From contig CM055102.1 in the NCBI GenBank assembly GCA_029204225.1, positions 12,009,939 to 12,073,938 of the forward strand: 64,000 nt of DNA, written 5' to 3'. The position numbers and the translations under genes are program-made. Positions 40,370 through 53,412 of this stretch are shown piece by piece. Below the pieces are notes generated by a model, which was given only the letters and a program-made list of their open reading frames with translations, did no database searches and had not been told where the DNA came from. This stretch comes from Diphasiastrum complanatum. Its lineage: Eukaryota; Streptophyta; Lycopodiopsida; Lycopodiales; Lycopodiaceae. Positions within the stretch are counted from its first letter, which is position 1, and every line of letters starts with the position of its first letter.

Positions 40370-40457
<88 letters not shown>

Positions 40458-53412: not shown

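Follow-up and report, generated by a model that had tools for sequence, protein, structure and literature searches.

How do retrotransposons of one family come to stand in a chain, all on one strand, each joined to the next by a long dinucleotide tract? The question is raised by a 64,000-nucleotide stretch of Diphasiastrum complanatum contig CM055102.1 (the window, part of an assembly of 1.745 Gb), in which positions 40371-51900 are occupied by six minus-strand copies of long interspersed nuclear elements (LINEs), chained through long (GA)n tracts that read as TC on the LINE strand. A first-pass annotation had described five such LINEs and proposed that an L1-like plant family integrates into (TC)n, including its own tails. 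The chain, its strand and its linkage stand, and the count rises to six, since the element called L7 contains two pieces of C-terminal open reading frame 2 (ORF2) sequence (47348-47464 and 47950-48066) that match each other, and is therefore two elements, L7a and L7b. The chaining of LINEs with (TC)n tails is real; it recurs in the genome and is unusual in a plant, and its mechanism is half settled. In the reading that we favor, with a little better than even confidence, a LINE with an endonuclease of the apurinic/apyrimidinic endonuclease (APE) type and an ORF1-only partner have in common a 3′-terminal hairpin and a CU-rich tail, for which TC tracts are favored, not obligatory, landing sites.

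The chain is best followed from its right-hand end. L10 (51649-51900) is 5′-truncated, with a type A 3′ untranslated region (UTR), a tail at 51649-51686 and a 5′ end placed by eye near 51900, outside TC. L9 (50312-51648, tail 50312-50391) consists of leader, ORF1 and 3′ UTR without ORF2; L8 (49890-50311, tail 49890-49948) is short and again has a type A 3′ UTR. L7b (47488-49889), truncated at its 5′ end, holds C-terminal ORF2 sequence, an endonuclease region and the end of ORF1, and is without the 3′ hairpin and tail, its terminus giving only a partial profile match to the hairpin (E 0.23); it meets L7a at 47487/47488, where the hairpin is broken at its outer stem. A 68-bp segment inside L7b (48157-48224) is 91% identical to 25816-25883. 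L7a (46797-47487, tail 46797-46863) is the 3′ part of a type B copy, and L6 (40371-46796, tail 40371-40453) retains leader, ORF1, the ORF2 thumb and C-terminus and the 3′ UTR, with most of ORF2 gone. Type A and type B 3′ UTRs are thus both present in the chain, and another tail type occurs in chains elsewhere. Tandem Repeats Finder places the GA tracts at 40372-40453, 46797-46861, 49895-49948, 50313-50389 and 51649-51684, with a further one at 14930-14991, and GA 12-mers with at most one mismatch number 195 in the window vs 0.55 expected from shuffles. Each of these tracts follows one kind of LINE 3′ end, for example GTCTTATATGCC..GGCATGGAAAAGACATTAAT on the LINE strand. As the annotation had noted, the 5′ end of one copy abuts the tract of its neighbor, with L6 meeting the tail of L7a at 46797, L7b that of L8 at about 49890, L8 that of L9 at about 50312 and L9 that of L10 at 51649, and a similar joint is found at 14930, where copy a abuts the tail of copy b. 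The chance that five of seven 5′ ends placed at random would fall inside LINE tails is about 4e-10, assuming independent insertions.

The tracts belong to the LINE 3′ ends. Nine 3′ ends of one family lie in the window, all on the minus strand (a at 14228, b at 14930, c at 20710, d at 23140, L6 at 40371, L7a at 46797, L8 at 49890, L9 at 50312 and L10 at 51649), and each of the nine is followed on the LINE strand by a tail of pyrimidines, which in L6-L10 is 36-82 bp long and chiefly (CT)n and in a, c and d is a short (CTTT)n. Copy a (14228-14929, tail 14228-14241) comprises the end of ORF1 and the 3′ UTR without ORF2, and copy b (14930-15785), whose 5′ part is lost at 15785, has (CTTT)n beside the body followed by about (CT)22. 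The tails that the annotation had placed inside or beside other LINE copies at 20711 and 23140 prove to be 3′ ends of the same family: copy c (20711-22330, tail 20710-20728, 5′ limit approximate and set by eye) is followed at its tail by reverse transcriptase (RT) sequence of another LINE copy, and copy d (23140-23365, 226 bp, tail 23140-23163) interrupts the RT frame of a different LINE at a point where there is no TC tract. The terminal 40 nt fold as a hairpin with an outer stem GUCUU/AAGAC and an inner stem AUGCC/GGCAU (40455-40494, minus strand, in L6), which aligns in all nine copies with 96.7% of cells paired, the out-of-register L7a row being kept in this count. Both partners have changed in three pairs, each of these in copy d, a number reached in one of 500 shuffles; sliding the partner gives at most 71.2% pairing, and six single-sequence folds agree with the hairpin.

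The same holds in two samples from the genome, in which near-identical duplicate loci were counted once per pair: 17 independent regions picked because they resemble the 5′ part of L9, and 20 type B copies picked because they resemble L6 (20 of 40 scored copies, among 2,227 first-look candidates). With E<0.001 the hairpin profile finds 22 matches, spread over 13 of the 17 regions, and every one of them has a pyrimidine-rich tail; this count leaves out three genome matches (E 0.033, 0.057 and 0.14) and the broken end of L7b. Four of the 22 tails start after a short spacer, which is (TTCTAA)n-like in L044, L045 and L054 and (CTCAAG)2 in L042. The first three represent a sister LINE type, whose tail is followed by ORF1-bearing copies. 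Pyrimidine-rich tails are likewise found in 20 of 20 type B copies, that of L067 opening with (GTCT)n, so that the claim of a pyrimidine tract in place of poly(A) is borne out, with poly(A) at none of 51 examined 3′ ends (9 in the window, 22 in the regions and 20 of type B). In many copies the tail grades from CTTT beside the body to pure CT outward. In 218 kb of regions and window, which had been picked for LINEs, 18 of 37 TC tracts of at least 30 bp follow the LINE 3′-end motif vs 2.4% of random places, and the start motif described below follows 10 of the 37 vs 8% of random places, five tracts having both motifs and 14 neither. Tract lengths differ between near-identical duplicate loci, for example 281 vs 51 bp in L020/L021, and such pairs, which may be haplotigs or segment copies, also include L017/L018, L022/L027, L024/L026 and L037/L038. 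Overlapping (GA)15 matches in the genome number 1,574,016 and 1,589,100 on the two strands.

Arrays of this kind are not unique to the locus: chains recur at L044, L045, L050 and L054, and further ones, judged by a start motif behind a tail, at L056, L058 and L070. At the 5′ ends, complete and truncated copies differ. TC lies just upstream of all 14 leader-bearing copies outside the window, and of all three inside it (L6, L9 and a). In 12 of the 17 regions, 184-430 nt separate a TC tract of 39-99 bp from the ORF1 match, and in L054 and L055 the TC where the copy seems to begin is 8-9 nt long. A start motif, RATGGC or a similar sequence, stands behind the 5′ tract in six of the 12 long-tract copies (L040, L043, L047, L048, L049 and L050) vs 8% of random places, and the 7-mer CGATGGC is common to L6, L9 and a within 50 nt (p 0.005). 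A long 5′ leader common to these three was considered and rejected, there being no significant alignment beyond the 7-mer. Among apparent truncated copies outside the window, one of 10 has TC at a 5′ limit that was partly placed by eye: L051-L053 are truncated in appearance and without TC (by eye), the type B copies L056, L059, L061, L064, L068 and L074 end at sequence that is neither recognizably LINE nor TC, and L069 ends at TC. Left out of this set are window copy c and L060, whose 5′ limits are not settled, and L065, L066, L067, L072 and L075, in which the upstream sequence is still LINE; L064 was kept although 26 bp upstream match a piece of L042 (E 2.7e-4), and window copy b, with no known 5′ end, stands outside the 5′-end counts. 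The contrast of 14/14 with 1/10 gives a Fisher p of 8e-6 for TC of at least 8 nt and 5e-4 for at least 33 nt, and it is softer than these values say, because completeness was judged by eye and the tract partly decided which copies were called complete. A strict (TC)n target is not supported: only the one apparent truncated copy outside the window ends at TC, and copy d sits within an RT frame at a place without a TC tract.

The tail travels with the element, because apparent truncated copies with long TC at the 3′ end (29-63 bp in L056, L059 and L064) have none at the 5′ limit, and because copy d has its own (CTTT)n tail at a site whose homologue has no tract. A preference for TC nevertheless remains, because truncated 5′ ends lie at TC (L7b, L8 and L069, three of 14 with the window included; tract share 0.0018 per strand, p 2e-6), because chains exist at several loci, and because two subfamilies are mixed in one chain. 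What the sequences show is the hairpin with its tails, the joints, and the return of all these in the sampled parts of the genome; from them we infer the RNA tail, the priming and the site preference as follows. The element RNA would end in CU-rich repeats, (CTTT)n or (CT)n in DNA, replacing poly(A), and a nicked GA-rich strand would pair with this tail and prime reverse transcription. TC tracts, chiefly the tails of older copies, would thereby become favored though not obligatory landing sites, and repeated landing in tails would build same-strand chains. Tails may grow or shrink by slippage, at insertion and afterwards, and tail lengthening by reverse-transcriptase slippage has a precedent in Alu (PMC3415434). 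The TC at the 5′ end of leader copies probably comes from RNA that starts inside a TC tract, or from second-strand joining that works best in TC. The conserved 3′ hairpin, common to the LINE and its ORF1-only partner, resembles the arrangement in stringent-type 3′ recognition and is a putative case of it.

Several points weigh against this reading. The 14 of 14 leader-bearing 5′ ends at TC fit equally a true TC target or RNA-borne 5′ TC; picking by the 5′ part of L9 biases the 17 regions toward leader-bearing copies; the sorting into complete and truncated copies, partly by the tract end, is circular to a degree; and some of the copies that look truncated may instead reflect a later insertion. 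The TC of L044 does not adjoin the LINE, the two being separated by about 30-38 bp of (AC)n. Across the chain the best candidate for a target site duplication, AAAAGTAG/AATAGTAG, is within the null, and 13 type B copies yield two short candidates only, one of 8 nt in L065, just above its null but in a copy where LINE sequence runs on upstream, and one of 9 nt in L068, equal to its null. Because no duplication is clearly beyond the null, insertion sites are not exactly definable. None was seen for copies c and d.

The closest rival holds that the element bears (TC)n at both ends, its RNA starting in the upstream tract, and that chains form by recombination between tracts or by landing in another copy's tract. 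This is a possible account, if not a probable one, and it overlaps the favored reading, in which the 5′ TC may be either a copy of the RNA start or part of the target DNA. It draws on the fact that 5′ TC tracks the leader and not truncation, at the Fisher values given above, and on the start motif behind the 5′ tract and the CGATGGC of L6, L9 and a; against it stand the truncated L7b, L8 and L069, which abut TC at the 5′ end as well. A tentative form of the idea, which we consider rather doubtful, makes the (TC)n tract a dual-purpose terminal repeat, serving at the 3′ end as tail and primer partner and at the 5′ end as transcription start, such that a copy landing in an old tail would gain a promoter, chains would propagate themselves, and much genomic (TC)n would be seeded in this way. 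Plant promoters contain a pyrimidine patch with which a TC tract acting as transcription start may be compared. That the family is a strictly (TC)n-specific LINE, with proper insertions always into (TC)n and truncated copies elsewhere being off-target or rearranged, is unlikely in our judgment. It would explain the 5′ TC of every leader copy outside and inside the window, the TC on both sides of L042, L048 and L049 between seemingly unrelated flanks, and the gradient from CTTT to CT, which resembles a tail plus the remainder of a target; moreover, no shared stretch longer than 4 nt occurs outside the tracts at any of five loci tested, which fits a target inside TC. However, the truncated copies are without clear duplications too, nine of 10 of them outside the window have no 5′ TC, including L056, L059 and L064 with their long 3′ tracts, and copy d and L10 start outside TC.

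Template jumping, in which the reverse transcriptase reaches the 5′ end of one RNA and continues within the same reaction on the tail of a second, accounts for same-strand joints at complete and truncated 5′ ends alike, and end-to-end jumping by the R2 RT is the subject of a title cited in PMC2881922 and PMC3414825, the latter also raising it as a possible mechanism. It is distinctly unlikely here, since type A and type B 3′ UTRs are mixed in the chain, with a further tail type in other chains, and since it gives no account of the 5′ TC of single copies between unrelated flanks. An assembly artefact, with contigs wrongly joined at (GA)n, is suggested by the nature of the joints, which are long simple repeats, and is hardly credible. 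As read, a gene encoding an NAD(P)-binding domain (PF13460) harbors the chain in one intron, between an exon with its donor at 39681 and the consecutive exon at 53266, each of which is open in frame. This position favors the assembly of the region. In addition, many loci have tracts next to LINE ends, and several of these are present in near-identical duplicate pairs.

The coding content bears on the clade of the family. L7b holds an APE-type endonuclease-like piece that matches PF03372 at E 6.7e-5, its 23.2 bits falling slightly short of the curated threshold (24.5); the match comes from one frame read with X at stops, and shorter stop-free pieces give none. The interval 20095-20712 contains RVT_1 (E 9.8e-16), and the closest solved structures to the RT are R2 (9.5e-8) and then L1 ORF2 (0.0015). 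The L1-like affiliation of the annotation is thus kept only as a lead, likely and short of shown, in which the endonuclease looks APE-type and the RT puts L1 second. The ORF1 model consists of a long helix and a low-confidence beta-alpha-beta-beta-alpha end (mean predicted local distance difference test score 63.8), with no fold match at E<=0.001, no Pfam match above cut-off and no match to the PDB by sequence and profile; neprilysin, at E 0.11 in a PDB search, was dismissed as a relative. Internal deletions seem common in this LINE family, judging from the copies compared. Endonuclease-like sequence of L7 stands beside the LINE 3′ part in L065, L067 and L072. Similarity to the family is lost at nearly the same LINE position (by eye) near GATGATGATAGTGG in L068 (~739), L072 (~734) and L074 (~719), upstream of which L072 continues with LINE sequence of another region; the shared break is a possible RT stop or deletion hot spot.

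The partner elements have a distinct structure. In L9 and copy a, ORF1 leads straight into the 3′ UTR with no ORF2 between, and the two ORF1 ends differ by mostly silent changes (ratio of nonsynonymous to synonymous substitution rates 0.17 over 87 codons). Among the 17 regions, eight elements of 1.13-1.51 kb (L040, L041, L043, L045, L047, L048, L049 and L050, the 3′ ends of L043 and L047 being placed by eye) contain ORF1 but have no room for ORF2. Across 15 elements, ORF1 was also compared by the corresponding ratio of proportions of differences (pN/pS) in the 97 pairs that share 60 codons or more. All 97 values fall below 1, with a median of 0.51 and a range of 0.29-0.92; the pairs are not independent and include decayed and longer copies. 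The input came from 16 of the 17 regions, L042 having given no ORF1 codons, and in five elements the end was placed by hand at 8000 or 8700. By its sequence this is a HAL1-like, non-autonomous, ORF1-only family with conserved coding and a 3′ end like that of the larger LINE, HAL1 itself having a poly(A) 3′ end. HAL1 (half-L1) is an ORF1-only non-autonomous L1 derivative (PMC5753468), and it differs in being mammalian, whereas the family here has the 3′ hairpin and CT tail in common with its larger LINE.

Other features of the window lie beside the LINE copies. L6 contains a plus-strand retrotransposon with long terminal repeats (40668-44052), whose repeats are 94.8% identical and which has GGAAG on both sides. 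A Copia-like element at 15786-19900, recognized by eye from its open reading frames, lies between copy b and a LINE piece at 20092 with its left part seemingly gone, and is probably the site of a deletion joint. GA tracts at 37899-37951 and 38080-38129 have no LINE 3′ end alongside. No tRNA genes were found in the window, an Rfam scan gave no ribozyme and two matches that are both far below gathering scores, and no relatives of the element were found in viral and bacterial/archaeal collections.

The system has partial counterparts among known LINEs. Kibi is a (TC)n-specific LINE among the target-specific elements of the R1 and Tx1 clades. These clades contain target-specific APE elements, microsatellites are among LINE targets (PMC4640811), and tandem arrays of R1 elements are found at a single site (PMC3414825); the Diphasiastrum family is similarly tied to (TC)n and differs in that its apparent truncated copies lie mostly outside TC. 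Among the Zepp and Zepp-like L1 elements of green algae, Zepp builds its arrays by inserting into copies already in place (PMC8226300), and nested clusters, one per chromosome, are reported (PMC3446292). The same-strand arrays here are similar and may also grow by insertion into existing copies; however, the Zepp 3′ repeat is (A)n (PMC3747384 Table 3), in contrast to the CT and CTTT tails described above, and Zepp clusters are probably centromeric, whereas the chain studied here is in an intron. In the same table eight of 15 green-algal L1 families end in non-A repeats, namely (CATA)n, (CA)n, (CAA)n and (TAA)n, which is similar to the present family in the absence of A-tails, but with no CT repeat among the algal families given there; of the flowering-plant L1 families, 224 of 233 have (A)n, none has another repeat and nine have none. 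Lepidopteran RTE elements have simple-repeat 3′ ends that generate microsatellite families (PMC2887409), and unlike the present family no head-to-tail chains are mentioned for them in the abstract of that paper. No plant LINE with (TC)n ends surfaced in the literature at the level of titles and opening lines, with subscription papers mostly outside coverage.

If the favored reading is true, this is a LINE of a land plant in which a CU tail takes the place of poly(A), and it would help to account for the very large (TC)n stock of the genome. Empty-site analysis would then allow a direct test of whether tail homology guides the choice of target, and the family would bear on the shift of plant L1 elements from specific 3′ recognition to poly(A), a question raised in PMC3747384.
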